From Bacteroidetes bacterium ADurb.Bin012 (GTDB taxonomy: Bacteria; Bacteroidota; Bacteroidia; Bacteroidales; TTA-H9), in NCBI GenBank assembly GCA_002071415.1, contig MWFC01000019.1, forward strand, positions 1 to 39,504: a stretch of 39,504 nucleotides of DNA, read 5' to 3'. Each line of letters begins with the position of its first letter. The stretch's first letter is position 1. Positions 2,160-33,932 of this stretch are shown here, in pieces. Under the pieces are notes generated by a model. That model did no database searches and was not told the DNA's origin. It saw only the letters and a list, made by a program, of their open reading frames with translations. The translations under genes and the position numbers were made by a program.

Positions 2160-3677
2160 ATGCCGGTATATCAAATTTCTTCGAAGGAACTTACTTACGA
2201 AAACATACAACATTTAATGGAGGAAGGATGGCAGATTGCCTTATCGGATGAAGCCATCCATAAAGTCGAACATTGCAGGGATTATCTCGATAACAAACTT
2301 GACATGCATGCCGGGCCAGTTTATGGTATCAATACGGGCTTCGGTTCGCTATGCGAGATAGAGATATCGAAAGAGCAACTGAAAGATCTGCAAAGAAATT
2401 TAGTAATGAGTCATGCCTGTGGAACAGGGGATGAAGTCTCCGAACAGATCGTAAAACTCATGTTGCTGTTGAAGATTCAGAATTTATCTTATGGGCATAG
2501 CGGTGTCCAATTAGATACCGTGAAATTGCTCGTTGAATTTTTCAATAAGGGAATCTACCCTGTGGTATATGAGCAAGGATCTTTGGGAGCGTCGGGCGAT
2601 CTGGCGCCTCTGGCTCATTTGTCGCTACCCTTATTAGGATTGGGTGAAGTAACTTATAAAGGGGAAAAAATGCCTGCCAGCAAAGCCCTGTTCGAAGCCG
2701 GTTTGAGTCCTGTTGATTTGAAATCGAAGGAAGGGCTGGCTCTTTTGAACGGTACTCAGTTTATGGGAGCTTATGGAGTTTATTGTCTTTTGAGAAGTTT
2801 TCGCCTTTCTACTCTTGCTGACTTGATTGGGGCACTTTCGCTCGATGCCTTCGATGGCAGAATAGAACCTTTTTATTTGCCTTTGCATGAAATTAGAAAC
2901 CATAAAGGGCAGATTTCCACTGCAAAAGGAATTGCCAATCTTCTCGAGAGCAGTGAGCTGATGAACAAACCCAAGAATCATGTGCAGGATCCTTATAGCT
3001 TCCGTTGTATTCCGCAAGTACACGGCGCCAGTAAAGATGCCATTGAATATGTTGCAAAGGTTTTTTCGTGCGAAATGAATGCAGTTACCGATAACCCTAC
3101 CATTTTTCCCTATGAAGACCTTATCATTTCAGGGGGAAATTTTCACGGACAACCTCTTGCCCTTGCGCTCGATTTTTTAGCTATTGCCCTTTCCGAATTA
3201 GGAAATATCTCGGAACGTCGCACTTATCAGCTCATTTCAGGGAAACGAAATCTACCGCACTTCCTTGTAGTAAATCCTGGCCTGCATTCTGGCTTTATGA
3301 TTCCACAATATACCGCTGCAAGCATAGTCAATCAGAATAAACAGCTTTGCACTCCTTCTTCGGTCGATTCCATCGAAAGTTCGCAAGGTCAGGAAGACCA
3401 TGTAAGCATGGGGGCTAATGCAGCCACCAAGGCTTTGAAAGTGGTAAATAATTTGCAGCGCATTCTGGCCATCGAACTCTTCAATGCAGCACAAGCACTC
3501 GAATTTCGCCGTCCTGCAAAAAGTTCTCCCCTCATCGAAAACTTTGTCCATAAATACCGCCAGTATGTTCCTTTCATTCAATATGATGAAGTGATGCATC
3601 CCCATATCGAAAATTCGATACGTTTTCTTTCTGAAGTAAAGCTCCCAATTTCTGACCTTTTCATCCCCAACCTTTAA
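2160..3677 (+). CDS. hutH: Histidine ammonia-lyase family protein (HutH type)
   Basis: 505 residues, full length for bacterial HAL (about 500). It catalyses non-oxidative removal of ammonia from an aromatic amino acid, most likely L-histidine to urocanate. Seen: YGINTGFGSL with catalytic Y55; SHACGTGDE, where the S84-H85 pair is HAL-like rather than the HL of Rhodobacter TAL; MIO triad A144-S145-G146 inside GSLGASGDLAPLAH; the NNNP-loop equivalent VTDNPTIF; and QEDHVSMGANA, with Glu as in HAL rather than the Gln of PAL. ATG at 2160 fits the family N-terminus. No hutU, hutI or ftcD is in the window, so it is not in a canonical hut operon. A LuxE-like acyl-activating gene follows after 123 bases with its own promoter. 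An aryl-polyene-type role cannot be excluded. Confidence 0.85.
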   Translation: MPVYQISSKELTYENIQHLMEEGWQIALSDEAIHKVEHCRDYLDNKLDMHAGPVYGINTGFGSLCEIEISKEQLKDLQRNLVMSHACGTGDEVSEQIVKLMLLLKIQNLSYGHSGVQLDTVKLLVEFFNKGIYPVVYEQGSLGASGDLAPLAHLSLPLLGLGEVTYKGEKMPASKALFEAGLSPVDLKSKEGLALLNGTQFMGAYGVYCLLRSFRLSTLADLIGALSLDAFDGRIEPFYLPLHEIRNHKGQISTAKGIANLLESSELMNKPKNHVQDPYSFRCIPQVHGASKDAIEYVAKVFSCEMNAVTDNPTIFPYEDLIISGGNFHGQPLALALDFLAIALSELGNISERRTYQLISGKRNLPHFLVVNPGLHSGFMIPQYTAASIVNQNKQLCTPSSVDSIESSQGQEDHVSMGANAATKALKVVNNLQRILAIELFNAAQALEFRRPAKSSPLIENFVHKYRQYVPFIQYDEVMHPHIENSIRFLSEVKLPISDLFIPNL

Positions 3678-24084: not shown

Positions 24085-27000
24085 TTATTTGAAGGCTTTT
24101 TCGGGCAATCCATCGCCCTGAATGCTCAAACGTGAAAAGTATTCGGGTACAGGCCTGCCTGTGAGTTTATCGACATACATCTTGGCAAGGTACTGACTTA
24201 GCATGAAACCTTGGCCGCGGAGCCCGACAAATAATCCTAAATCCGGGTCTATGATCATTCGTGGTTCGACATAATAACCTGACCAGACCGCCTGAAAACC
24301 CACCGAGGATAATTCGGGCAACCAATCCACGAAAACTTCTGAGAAAATTTCGAGAAATTCTCTCGAGTTAACTTTCAAATTCTTGAGGGTTTCGGCGGGA
24401 TCTACTGCCGGAGAAGCACAGCCTATGACCTGACCCGTTTCGGCTAGCTGCTGCCCATAAACGGCCACGAAACCCTTGTATTTCCTTCTGTCGATCAACA
24501 TCGGAAGTGGTATATCGTTGACACCAAGCATAGGCATTCGACGCGTAATAAATGCCTGATGGCGTACGGGATAGAGACCCGTTTCTATTCCTAATAATCT
24601 GGCAAAGTATGCGGCTTCTGGCCCTAATGCATTGATGAAGATTTCACTACTGTATTCAATGTATTGTTTGGTATGATCTTGAACCAAAACTTGATATTCC
24701 TGACCATTCTTTCTTACATCGATTAACTTGCAATCTTCCAAAATCGTACCTCCTTGCTGAATTCCAATCCGACGGATTAAATCGATGGTTTTGCCCGGAG
24801 TAGCCTGCCAACAATTATAAGTAATCTGTGCAGCAATATAGGTTTTTAAACCTGGGTTGAAAAATGGAGAAATCCGTTTCGTAAAATCCTTCGGACTGAT
24901 CATTTCGGCTTTGCTCCATGCCATGGCAGCTTCCAGTGCCTTGTACATTTCTTCATCGTGTGCAAAATTCACGTATTGTATGGGATGATAGTCGATGTTG
25001 TGCAGTTGTTGCAATTCGATAAATATCTGGCGGTTATGCTCGGCAATATCGGAAAGCTCAGGAACACTGAAATTGGGACGGCCTCCTGCAATATTCCTCC
25101 ATGAAGAACCACGGCCAAAATTAATCAATACCGGCTTCTTGCCTGCTTCGGATAAATATCGAAATAAGGCACTTCCTCCCATGCCTCCACCTGCTATTAG
25201 AGTTTCCACTTTCTCCTTTCTTACAGAACGGTTTACTACGAAATTTTCATGAACTGGCCTGGGATAAAGCTCTCCAAGCGAAAGTTGATTCGACATCGGT
25301 CCGCGGGGCGTGGCTTCGCCTACAATCTGAATTCCATAATCCTTTATCTTGGACTTCAATCGGGGTATGCAACGTTTTCCCCGACATGCACCCATCCCTA
25401 AACGTGTAGTGTGCTTTATCTCATCAATGGATATGAATTTCCTCTCACCTACCACTTCTAAAATCTCCTCAATTTTTACATCATCGCAATGACAGATATA
25501 ACTTTCAACCGGAATCTGTTCATCATAAGGCCGTAGCTCTAAAGGCACTGGATAATTCTTCTTGACTATGAAGCTACGCACTTGTGTTAAATCTTCTCCA
25601 TGCAGGCTGAGCGACTTTACTCGAGCAATATTGGTTTTATTGGGTTTCCGAAGAATCTTATCGATTACCCCTTCTCCTAAAATTTTTCCATAATTGTCAA
25701 CGAGAAAAACTTCGGCATTTTCCTTTACATCATATTCTATGGGCAAAAATACCCAATCGCGTTTCAAATTATAACCAAAAATAGCTAAGCCCGGACATTG
25801 ATAAACACAATCCATACAGCCAATGCACTTGTCGAAATCGATGGAAGGAACTGTACTGGTCGAAGATTTTGTAATGGCACCCTGAGGACAGGCAAAAGCA
25901 CAAGGATTACAGGCGAATCCATAAAGACAATCGATCAACACGAATCCTTTGGCTTGCATCCTTTCATGGTCGGGCATGTAAGGTCGATCGATGATTCTTA
26001 TTGGATGTTGCTGCGAATCGATATATTCTTTCGAAAGTGAAAGATAATCGTCATAATTCAAACGAATTCCCATTTCCATAAGAATTTCATAGGCTACTTG
26101 CTTCCCTCTCAGAACCGCACTCGTGCCTTCTCCAATGCGAATGGTATCGCCAGCACCATAGCATTTTCGTCCAAAAACCTCGTTCCCCTTGATCAGTAGC
26201 TGATCATCCGAAACCAATCCCGTACAAATATTGATGGCATCGATACCTTCGACTACAGTCTCAGTTCCAACAACAGGATGAAAATTTTTGCAAAGTGCTA
26301 TTACAGCACCCGTGATTCCCGTCAAATCTCGATTGGGTATAGCTTTGAGCAGAATATGCGAGGTCAGTACAGGAATTCCCAATCTTCGCACTCTATTCGC
26401 CTGAACGGGAAATCCGCCTTCAAAGGGTTGAGCCTCCAAAATGACTTTTACCCTTGCTCCCGCCTGCATAAGCTGATAAGAAGTCAAATATCCAATATTC
26501 CCCGCTCCAACCGTCAAAACATTTTTACCCAAGAGGGTAAACTGCATATTCATCATCTTTTGAACTACCGCAGCCGTGTAAACTCCGGGTAAGTCATCAT
26601 TCTCAAAGGAAGGCATAAATGGAACAGCCCCGGTAGATACAACCAAATATTCTGCATCGATATAATAGATTCTGTCGGTCGTAATTTCCTTCACGGCAAG
26701 CCGACCTCCTTCCAGAATATCCCATACCGTCGAATTCAAAAATATACCATCATGGTCTGTCCCAGCTAGGGTTTGAGCAATATCGAAACCTCGCATCCCT
26801 CCAAATTTCTTTTCCTTCTCAAAAAAGAAAAACTGATGGGTTTGCATCAGAAATTGCCCACCAATCTTACTGTTGTTATCAACTACCAAATTATCGATCC
26901 CAAACTGACATAAGATTTCACGGGCAGCCAAACCTGCCGGCCCGGCACCAATAATTGCGACCTGGGTTTTATAAACATCGATGGGTTCATTCTTGCGATA

Positions 27001-27309
27001 TTCGACAACCCCCGGCCTGTAATCATGAGGGATTTCTTTTACCTCATGCACTCCATCGACCTTGGTAATGCAAATGCGCTTTACCTGCCCATTCACCAGC
27101 ATTTCACAAGCACCGCATTTCCCTATGCCACATTCCAAACTCCTCTTACGATTGCGTAAACTGTGACTGTGTACAGGAAATCCAGCCTGATGAAGCGCTG
27201 CAGCTATGGTATAACCCTTCTCAGCTTCGATGATGTGCCCATCGTATCTAAAAGTAACCTTTTCTGCCTTGGGAACCTCAAGAATGGGATGTGTGGTAAT
27301 TTTATACAT
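24085..27309 (-). CDS. Five-module fused FAD/iron-sulfur amino-acid dehydrogenase (HcnABC/LhpABC-like, single chain)
   Basis: 1074 residues. Order: 2Fe-2S ferredoxin-like domain, HcnA type (about 15-95; C60, C65, C68, C80). FAD/NAD pyridine-nucleotide oxidoreductase, HcnB type (about 113-410; GAGPAG at 121-126, second Rossmann GAGNIG near 268-273). Two 4Fe-4S motifs (C461/C467/C470/C474 and C495/C498/C501/C505). BFD-like 2Fe-2S (C606, C608, C642, C647). A D-amino-acid-oxidase-type FAD domain, HcnC type (about 700-1050; GGGMGG at 707-712). In other bacteria and archaea these modules are separate subunits of amine dehydrogenases (hydrogen cyanide synthase, D-hydroxyproline dehydrogenase, dye-linked proline dehydrogenase). 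It probably oxidises a secondary or alpha-amino acid and passes electrons to NAD(P) or ferredoxin; substrate unknown. Cytoplasmic. No signal peptide; no separate subunit genes nearby. Tryptophanase is encoded upstream on the same strand. Confidence 0.85.
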   Translation of the reverse strand: MYKITTHPILEVPKAEKVTFRYDGHIIEAEKGYTIAAALHQAGFPVHSHSLRNRKRSLECGIGKCGACEMLVNGQVKRICITKVDGVHEVKEIPHDYRPGVVEYRKNEPIDVYKTQVAIIGAGPAGLAAREILCQFGIDNLVVDNNSKIGGQFLMQTHQFFFFEKEKKFGGMRGFDIAQTLAGTDHDGIFLNSTVWDILEGGRLAVKEITTDRIYYIDAEYLVVSTGAVPFMPSFENDDLPGVYTAAVVQKMMNMQFTLLGKNVLTVGAGNIGYLTSYQLMQAGARVKVILEAQPFEGGFPVQANRVRRLGIPVLTSHILLKAIPNRDLTGITGAVIALCKNFHPVVGTETVVEGIDAINICTGLVSDDQLLIKGNEVFGRKCYGAGDTIRIGEGTSAVLRGKQVAYEILMEMGIRLNYDDYLSLSKEYIDSQQHPIRIIDRPYMPDHERMQAKGFVLIDCLYGFACNPCAFACPQGAITKSSTSTVPSIDFDKCIGCMDCVYQCPGLAIFGYNLKRDWVFLPIEYDVKENAEVFLVDNYGKILGEGVIDKILRKPNKTNIARVKSLSLHGEDLTQVRSFIVKKNYPVPLELRPYDEQIPVESYICHCDDVKIEEILEVVGERKFISIDEIKHTTRLGMGACRGKRCIPRLKSKIKDYGIQIVGEATPRGPMSNQLSLGELYPRPVHENFVVNRSVRKEKVETLIAGGGMGGSALFRYLSEAGKKPVLINFGRGSSWRNIAGGRPNFSVPELSDIAEHNRQIFIELQQLHNIDYHPIQYVNFAHDEEMYKALEAAMAWSKAEMISPKDFTKRISPFFNPGLKTYIAAQITYNCWQATPGKTIDLIRRIGIQQGGTILEDCKLIDVRKNGQEYQVLVQDHTKQYIEYSSEIFINALGPEAAYFARLLGIETGLYPVRHQAFITRRMPMLGVNDIPLPMLIDRRKYKGFVAVYGQQLAETGQVIGCASPAVDPAETLKNLKVNSREFLEIFSEVFVDWLPELSSVGFQAVWSGYYVEPRMIIDPDLGLFVGLRGQGFMLSQYLAKMYVDKLTGRPVPEYFSRLSIQGDGLPEKAFK

Positions 27310-27340
27310 GATATTTCCTTTAATGTGAATAAAAAAACAT

Positions 27341-27365
27341 TGTGAAAAATTTCACAGCAAAATTA
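27341..27365 (-). promoter_or_regulatory. Promoter box plus CRP/FNR-type palindrome of the fused dehydrogenase gene
   Basis: -7 box TAATTTTG followed by C (minus strand, 27358-27365). Directly after it, 27341-27356 reads TGTGAAAAATTTCACA, an exact TGTGA-N6-TCACA site. It spans the expected transcription start, so a bound Crp/Fnr-family protein would most simply repress. Confidence 0.65.
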
Positions 27366-29299: not shown

Positions 29300-29312
29300 A
29301 AAATTGAAGTTT

Positions 29313-29447
29313 TTAATTATGATAATGGTTTTGTTTAATCTTTCGACTGGAAAAATCTCTATAGAAAATATGGAAAAAGAAAAAACACCCGGCTGGGGAA
29401 TTCAGATGGAATAATTGTCGCGGCACTTGATACGACAATATCTGCAT
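29313..29447 (-). other. Possible 44-codon leader ORF upstream of tnaA
   Basis: ATG at 29445-29447 to TAA at 29313-29315, ending 13 bases before the tnaA start. The peptide has no Trp. It overlaps the end of the 25-codon frame in another frame. Coding status unproven. Confidence 0.2.
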
Positions 29448-29479
29448 AGTGCTAATGAAGAAAGCAGTTCAAACCACAT
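29402..29479 (-). other. Possible 25-codon leader peptide of tnaA with Trp at position 2
   Basis: The frame encodes MWFELLSSLALC followed by 13 more residues and TGA. E. coli TnaC is 24 residues with an essential Trp-Phe pair; here Trp-Phe occurs but at positions 2-3, and no C-terminal Pro is present. The stop is followed by CCCCAGCCGGGTG and a T6-C-T5 run, an attenuator-like arrangement. A 7-bp inverted repeat (ATTGTCG/CGACAAT, 29414-29439) lies inside. Suggestive only. Confidence 0.3.
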
Positions 29480-29482
29480 ATT

Positions 29483-29490
29483 CAAAATTA
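29483..29490 (-). promoter_or_regulatory. Candidate -7 promoter box for tnaA
   Basis: TAATTTTG on the minus strand, about 184 bases before the tnaA ATG and 3 bases before the ATG of the small leader frame. No -33 TTTG. Confidence 0.4.
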
Positions 29491-29586
29491 TCGACGTAAA
29501 ATTAAAAGATTCGTATTTTACAATGCAAAAATCGGAAAAAAATCTCAAAACCAAAACTGGTTTATTTTCCTTTTCTCTTTCATCGA

Positions 29587-29620
29587 TTTGCCGAAAATCA
29601 ACAAAAGCTCTTTACCTTTG
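29587..29620 (+). promoter_or_regulatory. Promoter of the M64 peptidase gene (TTTG-N22-TACCTTTG)
   Basis: -33 TTTG at 29587-29590, 22 bases, -7 TACCTTTG at 29613-29620 followed by C. The ATG is 69 bases further on. One of the two most complete promoters in the window. Confidence 0.75.
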
Positions 29621-29688
29621 CTTGCAGGCTAATAACGAAAAACACAAACATAAAACATTGTGATTTAATTTATTAAATTTTCTCCATA

Positions 29689-31009: not shown

Positions 31010-31912
31010 ATGATTACTCATCTGGAACAAATGATAGAAGCTGCAAAGGCTAAGGCTCGTAAGAGAATCGTTGTGGCTTGCGCCAACGACAACCACTCTA
31101 TCGAAGCCGTACATCATGCCATGGAATTAGGAATTGTAGATGCTACGCTTGTTGGCGATGAAGCCACTATTGTAAAGGTTTGCAAGGATTTGAATATCCA
31201 ACCCGAGAAATTTCGCATTGTACAGGAATCGGATGAGCAAAAGGCAGCTCACAAAGCCGTTGAATTGATTGTAAAGGGAGAAGGCGATATTCTGATGAAA
31301 GGCCTTGTGACCACCGATAAATATATGAGGGCTATTCTCAATAAAGACGCAGGTTTGTTGCCACCAAAGGCAATCTTGAGTCATGTAACCGTTATCGAAA
31401 ACCCGAATTACGAAAAACTGTTAATTGTTGGTGACGTAGCCATTATACCTGTTCCCGACCTCGACCAGAAGATTGCCATCACGAATTACCTGATACAAAC
31501 TGCTCATCGTTTAGGTAATGAAAAGCCTAAGGTGGCAATTATTGCCGCAACAGAACAAATGTTACCGAACATGCCAACATGCGTGGATGCAGCCATAATT
31601 TCAAAGATGGGTGAACGCGGACAAATCAAAGGAGCGCTTATAGAGGGTCCTCTTGCACTCGACACGGCTATCGACAAAGAAAGCGCTGCCATTAAAAAGC
31701 TGAAGAGCGAAGTGGCCGGCGACGCCGATTGTCTGCTTTTCCCTAATATCGAAACAGGTAATGTTTTCTACAAATTCAATACAAAACTCGCCAAAGGCGA
31801 ACTGGGAGCCATCGTCATAGGAGCCAAATGCCCGGCAGTCCTCTCCTCAAGAGGCGATAGCGCCCTTACTAAAACCTATTCCATTGCCCTGGCTGCTCTG
31901 TCAACCGATTAA
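31010..31912 (+). CDS. ptb: Phosphate butyryltransferase (first copy)
   Basis: 300 residues, phosphate acetyl/butyryltransferase family; acyl-CoA plus phosphate to acyl-phosphate plus CoA. Seen: GDILMKGLVTTDKYMRAIL (about 85-103), AAIISKMGERGQIKGALIEGPLALD (about 198-222), IETGNVFYKF and PAVLSSRGDS. Length is normal for Ptb (about 300), shorter than Pta. First of a ptb-ptb-buk run; 27 bases separate it from the second copy. Confidence 0.92.
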   Translation: MITHLEQMIEAAKAKARKRIVVACANDNHSIEAVHHAMELGIVDATLVGDEATIVKVCKDLNIQPEKFRIVQESDEQKAAHKAVELIVKGEGDILMKGLVTTDKYMRAILNKDAGLLPPKAILSHVTVIENPNYEKLLIVGDVAIIPVPDLDQKIAITNYLIQTAHRLGNEKPKVAIIAATEQMLPNMPTCVDAAIISKMGERGQIKGALIEGPLALDTAIDKESAAIKKLKSEVAGDADCLLFPNIETGNVFYKFNTKLAKGELGAIVIGAKCPAVLSSRGDSALTKTYSIALAALSTD

Positions 31913-31939
31913 TGACCCATATTTCGTCATTTCCCGGCT

Positions 31940-32863
31940 ATGATCACGAATTTTACGCAATTGGTGGATAAATTAAATACAGCAGCCCCTCAAACCATTG
32001 CTGTGGTGGCCGCCGAAGATCATGCAACCATGGGAGCCATCGTTCGGGCCATAAGAACGGGATTTGCCAAGGCTATCCTTATCGGCAACAAGACCCGAAC
32101 AGAATCATTGCTTGCCCACCTGGAACTTCCTCCCGAAACTTTTTTGATCGTTCATCTACCCGATGAACAAATGGCAATGAAAGAGGCATTAAGTCTGATT
32201 CATCAAGGAAAAGCCGATATCTTGATGAAAGGACTCATTGGTACGGATATTTTTCTGAAAGCCGTGCTGGATAAAACATCGGGACTGATGAAACAGGGCG
32301 AAGTAATGACTTATGTAGCTGCTCTGCAAATCCCTTCTTACCACAAACTACTTTTCATTTCCGATACGGCAGTCATCCCTTATCCCAATCTCGAACAGAA
32401 AATTGCCATGTTGAAATACGCGGTGGAGATGGCAAGAAGGTTTGGCATTTCCAAACCCAAAGTTGCTTTGATTGGAGCCTCCGAAAAAGTCGGAAATCAA
32501 TCACAAACAGCCATAGATGCCAGTATTATATGCAAGATGGCTCAACGCGGACAACTTGGGGAAGTGATTGTGGATGGCCCACTCGATATTTTTCTTGCTA
32601 CTCAGCCCGAAAGCCTGAACATTAAACGAATCATCACTCCTATTGGAGGAGAAGCCGATATTTTGATCTTTCCTTCTCTCGAAAGTTGCAATGCATTCTA
32701 TAAAGGCCTTGTAAGGTTTGCTGGCGCAGAATTGGCTGGCTTGCTCCAAGGAACACGCAAGCCCGTAGTTCTGATGTCGAGAAGCGAAAGCGAAAATTCG
32801 AAATTTTACTGTTTAGCACTTGCCTGCCTCATGGCAAATAATAACAATTTATCCTATGAATAA
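31940..32863 (+). CDS. ptb: Phosphate butyryltransferase (second, diverged copy)
   Basis: 307 residues, clearly paralogous to the preceding gene but diverged throughout. Shared landmarks: ADILMKGLIGTDIFLKAVL, ASIICKMAQRGQLGEVIVDGPLD, LESCNAFYKG and PVVLMSRSES. The TTD of copy one is GTD here, and the acyl-pocket region differs, so the two may prefer different acyl-CoAs or form a mixed oligomer. Its stop overlaps the buk start by 8 bases (ATGAATAA at 32856-32863), implying coupled translation. Confidence 0.88.
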   Translation: MITNFTQLVDKLNTAAPQTIAVVAAEDHATMGAIVRAIRTGFAKAILIGNKTRTESLLAHLELPPETFLIVHLPDEQMAMKEALSLIHQGKADILMKGLIGTDIFLKAVLDKTSGLMKQGEVMTYVAALQIPSYHKLLFISDTAVIPYPNLEQKIAMLKYAVEMARRFGISKPKVALIGASEKVGNQSQTAIDASIICKMAQRGQLGEVIVDGPLDIFLATQPESLNIKRIITPIGGEADILIFPSLESCNAFYKGLVRFAGAELAGLLQGTRKPVVLMSRSESENSKFYCLALACLMANNNNLSYE

Positions 32864-33932
32864 TGAACGTATTCTTGCCATCAATCCTGGCTCAACCTCA
32901 ACCAAAATCGCCGTATATGAAGGAAACAAGAATATCTTCCTGAAAACCATACGCCATACTCCCGAAGAATTGCAATGTTATCGAAAAATTACCGACCAGT
33001 TTTCATTCAGGAAAGATATCATTCTTAAAGAACTAAAAGCAGCCGGAATCGATTTGAACAGCATAAGAGTGGTGGTTGGCCGAGGAGGTTTGGTCAAACC
33101 TATTCCAAGCGGAATATATGAAGTGAACTCTCGTATGATCGAAGATTTGAAAGCTGGCCTGATGGGCGAACACGCCAGTAATTTGGGAGGCATTATAGCC
33201 GACGAAATTGCTCGCTCGTTGAAGGATGCTAAAGCATACATAGCCGATCCGGTAGTCGTAGACGAATTACAGGACGTAGCACGCATTGCCGGCCACCCTC
33301 TCTTCAAGAGAGTTTCCATCTTTCATGCCTTGAACCAGAAAGCCGTAGCTCGATTATATGCCCGATCGCAGAACAAAAACTACGAAGACCTCAACCTATT
33401 GATTGCACACTTGGGAGGCGGTATATCGGTAGGCGCTCATCAAAAGGGAAAGGTGATTGACGTAAACAATGCTTTGGATGGTGAAGGTCCTTTTTCGCCC
33501 GAACGTAGCGGAACTTTGCCTGTAGGACAGTTGGCAGCCTTATGTTTCAGTGGAGAATATACCCTCGAGGAAGTAAAAAAGATGATTACGGGCAAAGGGG
33601 GATATATGGCCTATTTGAATACTAACAATGCTTATGAGGTGGAAATAGCCGCACGTGAGGGGAATCAGAAGGCTGCCCTCATTCAGGACGCCCTAGCCTA
33701 TCAGGTAGCTAAGGAAATCGGAGCTATGGCAAGCGTGTTGAAGGGAAATGTCGATGCTATTATTCTTACAGGAGGAATAGCTCATAATACCTATGTGGTA
33801 AATTACATCAAGGAAATGATTGGCTTCATCGCTCCCATTGTGGTTTATCCCGGAGAAGATGAAATGAGTGCCCTGGCCATAAACGGCCTCATGGTATTAA
33901 GGAATGAAGTAAATGCTGGCATTTATGAATAG
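32856..33932 (+). CDS. buk: Butyrate kinase
   Basis: 358 residues, ASKHA (acetate/butyrate kinase) family; acyl-phosphate plus ADP to acid plus ATP. Seen: ILAINPGSTSTKIAVYE at the N-terminus, GRGGLVKPIPSG, ADPVVVDEL, SIFHALNQKAVAR, IAHLGGGISVGAHQKGKVID, GPFSPERSGTLPV and ILTGGIAHN. ATG at 32856 gives the family N-terminus; a TTG at 32820 would add 12 unrelated residues. Last gene of the ptb-ptb-buk operon. Butyrate or branched-chain acids are the plausible products. Confidence 0.94.
   Translation: MNNERILAINPGSTSTKIAVYEGNKNIFLKTIRHTPEELQCYRKITDQFSFRKDIILKELKAAGIDLNSIRVVVGRGGLVKPIPSGIYEVNSRMIEDLKAGLMGEHASNLGGIIADEIARSLKDAKAYIADPVVVDELQDVARIAGHPLFKRVSIFHALNQKAVARLYARSQNKNYEDLNLLIAHLGGGISVGAHQKGKVIDVNNALDGEGPFSPERSGTLPVGQLAALCFSGEYTLEEVKKMITGKGGYMAYLNTNNAYEVEIAAREGNQKAALIQDALAYQVAKEIGAMASVLKGNVDAIILTGGIAHNTYVVNYIKEMIGFIAPIVVYPGEDEMSALAINGLMVLRNEVNAGIYE

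Follow-up and report, generated by a model that had tools for sequence, protein, structure and literature searches.

A perfect CRP-like palindrome at a dehydrogenase promoter of uncultured Bacteroidales is very probably a Rex operator

Results

The dehydrogenase locus and its promoter

The window, by which we mean the whole stretch of DNA analysed, comprises 39,504 nt (contig MWFC01000019.1, Bacteroidetes bacterium ADurb.Bin012). The region considered here contains the following features:

24085..27309, minus strand: fused flavo-iron-sulfur dehydrogenase, 1074 aa (Pfam/NCBIfam domains, PDB matches)
27324..27339, minus strand: possible weak second Rex half-site, TGTTTTTTTATTCACA (differs from the motif at two positions)
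27340..27357, minus strand: putative Rex-type operator, 18 bp, CTGTGAAATTTTTCACAA (core palindrome 27341-27356; sequence, conservation, ortholog consensus)
27358..27365, minus strand: -7 promoter box, TAATTTTG, abutting the operator

By computation we examined the site and its conservation in spite of varying spacers, the occurrence of the motif across genomes, whether Rex is present and of which class, and which genes are targets. Pfam and NCBIfam assign 2Fe-2S, Pyr_redox_2, 4Fe-4S, BFD and DAO domains to the dehydrogenase, and PDB matches were obtained with 1y56_A over residues 13-269 and with 1y56_B over residues 699-1050. We take 1y56 to be PH1363 and its partner, a dye-linked L-proline dehydrogenase. 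Its 2Fe-2S/flavin module and its DAO module are both found in the regulated enzyme, which differs in uniting them with the 4Fe-4S and BFD domains in one chain. The joining of the 1y56_A and 1y56_B domains suggests that the protein is probably an amino-acid dehydrogenase carrying its own electron-transfer modules. The congeneric genome G001 encodes a dehydrogenase that is 91% identical, and the nearest named genome is that of Bacteroidales bacterium UBA5762. A further dehydrogenase, 73% identical, occurs in a record named Phycisphaerae bacterium SM23_30 (L258), probably as the result of a binning error or of a transfer. Elsewhere in the window lie two tandem phosphate acetyl/butyryl transferases with an acetate/butyrate kinase-like gene (31010-33932) and an aromatic amino acid lyase, perhaps a histidine ammonia-lyase (2160-3677), all of which fit an amino-acid fermenter.

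A preliminary description of this DNA had reported a perfect TGTGA-N6-TCACA site one base away from a promoter box, and both details are exact. Read along the minus strand, which codes for the dehydrogenase, the palindrome TGTGAAAAATTTCACA (27341-27356) is TGTGAAATTTTTCACA. A single base (C, 27357) separates it from the -7 box, and 31 nt lie between its end and the ATG (27309). Since TAATTTTG fits the TAnnTTTG consensus of the Bacteroidota -7 box (PMC7366714), transcription would start inside the palindrome, at about 27350-27352; no clear -33 TTTG was seen in the dehydrogenase promoter. The weak second half-site lies 17 bp from the main operator, centre to centre, and has counterparts of similar sequence in G001 (TGTTTTTGCATTAACA) and G004 (TGTTTTTCTACTAACA).

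From a CRP-like pattern to TGTKAA-N4-TTMACA

All genome-wide counts given below come from pattern searches set against a reversed-sequence control. The single exact TGTGA-N6-TCACA match of the window is also the only one in the 2.64-Mb genome, and the control contains one as well. With one mismatch allowed, the genome yields 37 matches against 21 in the control, and three relatives yield 46 against 36, 68 against 47 and 43 against 34. A CRP regulon was discarded on these figures, which represent a mild excess at best, the exact pattern not being enriched at all.

G001 has the same site, TGTGAAATAATTCACA. Immediately after TAATTTTGC comes the palindrome of G001, G003 and G004, where the spacers are ATAA, TTTA and AAGA, and in G004 both arms are changed together into TGTTAA and TTAACA. 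These changed arms and spacers pointed to the motif TGTKAA-N4-TTMACA, which is found 61 times in nine genomes of the family against 4 times in the control, 5 times in the genome under study against none, and 21 times in G053, again with no control match. Of the TGTTAA-N0..12-TTAACA matches that were listed for six genomes, the N4 spacer accounts for 30 and N5, the next commonest, for 11. The preliminary description had raised the possibility that its motif is no commoner upstream of genes than inside them; for the recast motif, 51 of the 61 family sites lie outside ORFs, the non-coding share of the fetched DNA being 14%.

In the promoters of the dehydrogenase orthologs, whose alignment the same description had proposed, the site is kept in G001, G003 and G004 and missing from most of the named orthologs. 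Within 250 nt upstream, the exact motif is present in 18 of the 79 named orthologs (0.025 expected) and a site with at most one mismatch in 24 (0.66 expected); the other 55 have no site within one mismatch. The g2 and g5 genomes of the same family also lack a site upstream of the dehydrogenase. The absence of the site from these genomes and from most orthologs indicates that the dehydrogenase has been gained or lost repeatedly as a target. A chance palindrome in AT-rich DNA would account for a TGTGA-N6-TCACA count that equals its reversed control, but is scarcely credible in view of the excess over expectation among the named orthologs and of the conservation of the site behind the -7 box in three relatives whose spacers have changed.

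When the inner letters are not assumed, TGT-N10-ACA is found 37 times in the ortholog promoters, against 3 to 7 times for other spacings. In these 37 sites position 4 is T in 21 and G in 13, A6 is present in 30 and T11 in 27, and the resulting unbiased consensus is (C/T)TGTTAAT-NN-ATTAACA(A/G), of which TGTGAA is a variant half-site. This is the Rex operator (ROP) of Ravcheev et al. 2012, of which the general form, TTGTGAANNNNTTCACAA, is quoted in PMC6391272 and the clostridial form, TTGTTAANNNNTTAACAA, in PMC5367854. In these quoted forms, the ROP agrees with our sites in length, N4 spacer, the two half-site forms and promoter placement, and the 18-bp site at the dehydrogenase agrees with TTGTKAA-N4-TTMACAA at every position except one outer base.

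The Crp/Fnr protein of the genome

The preliminary description had linked the palindrome to the Crp/Fnr family, and the ten fixed letters of TGTGA-N6-TCACA are indeed all present. The genome, moreover, encodes one Crp/Fnr protein (contig C29, 225 aa), whose recognition helix, TTRESVCR, is CRP-like and whose own gene has two one-mismatch palindromes just upstream of it. It is nevertheless highly unlikely that this protein or a relative binds the site as an operator of the CRP/FNR type. The congener G001, whose assembly is 95% complete, keeps the site and shows no match to the C29 protein, no Crp/Fnr and no cNMP-binding domain, and on this ground the C29 protein was rejected as the regulator of the palindrome. 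In addition, the orthologous sites prefer TGTTAA to TGTGAA and keep A6 and T11, instead of conserving TGTGA around a free N6 spacer; the exact pattern is not enriched; and the close relatives of the C29 protein belong to other families of the order, with none in its own family. The ortholog consensus is a Rex box, and the rex operon is headed by the same motif; an assignment to Crp/Fnr is not supported.

The Crp/Fnr gene itself (L002 1480-2214; contig C29, 14058-14792) encodes an N-terminal CxxCxC ahead of the helix just described. The palindromes AGTGATACAAATCACA and TGTTATATCATTCACA lie 20-57 nt before its start, beside a divergent DsrE-like gene, and the protein likely regulates its own expression through this CRP-like motif. 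Its absence from the congener and the position of its closest relatives (55-62%) in other families indicate that it was acquired or that the contig is a stray one.

Rex proteins and their two recognition helices

Rex is encoded on contig C3 (L230 415-1047) as a protein of 211 aa with the domains PF06971 and PF02629; it scores 198 bits against NCBIfam NF003995 (cut-off 126) and matches solved Rex structures. All nine family genomes have a Rex match, eight of them above the Pfam cut-off. The ninth, G008, is 76% complete and has seven sites; its match is below threshold and does not align as a true Rex. In the Rex of T. maritima, Arg48 touches the G of the half-site (PMC8836258), and the recognition helix of the Rex studied here, VQVRRDLMLIG, possesses this G-contacting Arg.

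Across 60 genomes of the order, the helix takes two forms, VRRD(L/I)MLIG and VAKDLS. Outside the family, genomes whose Rex is of the VRRD form are enriched in the motif (75 against 17 in the control). Those with the VAKD form show no enrichment (5 against 5), and neither do those that lack Rex (28 against 37), the classes having been assigned post hoc with the counts already seen and some genomes remaining unclassified for want of a fetched Rex locus. The comparison is supportive: enrichment is confined to genomes in which Rex has kept the G-reading Arg. In the second class of Rex (loci L203-L211), Ala takes the place of this Arg, and TGTKAA-N4-TTMACA is not enriched.

Genes downstream of the motif

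The rex gene is the last of an operon that also contains NuoE-like, NuoF-like, [FeFe] hydrogenase, hydrogenase-like histidine kinase, receiver and receiver-kinase genes. The motif heads this nuoE-nuoF-[FeFe]hydrogenase-HisK-rex operon in the genome under study and in G001, and in G053 a site precedes rex by about 67 nt; rex itself would belong to the genome-wide regulon of redox and fermentation genes. Within the operon (L230 2639-4630 and L231 5217-7208), an [FeFe]-hydrogenase-like domain is fused to a histidine kinase beside the receiver and receiver-kinase proteins; this fusion is perhaps an H2 sensor next to an NADH sensor.

In seven genomes gdhA (glutamate dehydrogenase) has a site no more than about 160 nt away. 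The same holds for nqrA, hydrogenase genes (NuoE-type and electron-bifurcating [FeFe]), a tdh-like threonine catabolism gene divergent from kbl, an SDR, pyruvate carboxylase B/oxaloacetate decarboxylase alpha and aldehyde ferredoxin oxidoreductase. Some of these names were given by the appearance of the sequence instead of a family search; one suspected V-ATPase subunit E, for example, had no Pfam match. In G053 a site precedes proline dehydrogenase, and G001 has a full Rex box, TTGTTAAATAATTAACAA, in the interval that separates tryptophanase from an M64 peptidase (L152 7464-7479). The same interval of the window (29300-29688) has no intact Rex box and holds at most TTGTGATTTAATTTATTAAA near 29659. 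The clustering at amino-acid fermentation genes for which a genome scan had been suggested is therefore seen with gdhA, kbl/tdh and the NAD-linked hydrogenase, and in relatives with tnaA and proline dehydrogenase.

Compared with the ROP as it is quoted, these targets are alike in including hydrogenase, NADH-linked enzymes and rex itself. They differ in including the fused flavo-iron-sulfur dehydrogenase, glutamate dehydrogenase and kbl/tdh, and the lineage, here, is one of uncultured Bacteroidales.

Discussion

At low NADH, Rex is bound to DNA, from which NADH releases it. The model we propose is that the palindrome is very probably a Rex operator at which Rex represses the dehydrogenase by blocking the transcription start and from which NADH releases it, together with a regulon of redox and amino-acid genes. 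In that state Rex would occupy TGTGAAATTTTTCACA, which adjoins the -7 box on its downstream side and covers the predicted start, and would thereby keep RNA polymerase from transcribing the gene for the fused dehydrogenase of amino acids. A rise in NADH would release Rex and allow the dehydrogenase to be expressed along with glutamate dehydrogenase, the NADH-linked [FeFe] hydrogenase, the Na+-NQR and amino-acid catabolism genes. The dehydrogenase, which may feed electrons in, may then run with the hydrogenase and the NQR in an amino-acid fermentation programme. We infer the binding of Rex, its response to NADH and a repressing rather than an activating action; an operator that spans the start would be expected to block transcription. 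The preliminary description had taken the overlap with the start as a hint of repression by a redox- or metabolite-sensing protein. The conserved operator does span the predicted start, a position that fits repression, and the second part of this proposal is borne out by a regulator that reads the NADH/NAD+ balance, whose gene is present and whose operon is headed by the motif.

The placement of the operator is not uniform. Eight genomes (that of the window and seven others) have it one or two bases behind the -7 box. In five, its start precedes the end of the box by 29-40 bp, and in eight by 51-65 bp. In seven orthologs this distance is 51-54 bp, a placement that does not demand repression and that would suit a site at which Rex binds and activates or fine-tunes expression instead of blocking the start. 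We regard such a role at the dehydrogenase as unlikely, because the palindrome of the window and its seven equivalents directly follow the -7 box across the predicted start and because Rex is described as a repressor (PMC8836258, PMC6391272). The offsets from the end of the box (+1, -29/-31, -40, -51/-54 and -65; L235-L310) fall in steps of about one helical turn, with few independent cases.

The mechanism of Rex is well known. The amino-acid dehydrogenase as a target, and the surrounding Rex regulon of uncultured Bacteroidales, appear to be undescribed as far as our literature search extends: it returned no account of a Rex regulon in Bacteroidota, Ravcheev et al. 2012 being known to us through the papers that quote it, and a paper on the regulatory network of B. 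thetaiotaomicron makes no mention of Rex. On balance, we lean towards the view that an undescribed Rex regulon of the deep Bacteroidales links the NADH/NAD+ ratio to amino-acid fermentation and NADH-linked hydrogen metabolism, and that a second class of Rex (VAKD instead of VRRD), having lost the key Arg, must read another operator.

In conclusion, our observations call for caution, as a site that matches the CRP consensus perfectly can be a Rex box, and they extend the Rex box to a phylum whose Rex regulon seems uncharted. The two recognition helices, with Arg or Ala and with the motif present or absent, offer a natural contrast for the study of site choice by Rex. For the uncultured anaerobic Bacteroidales, the proposed operator would constitute a concrete and testable redox switch for amino-acid fermentation.
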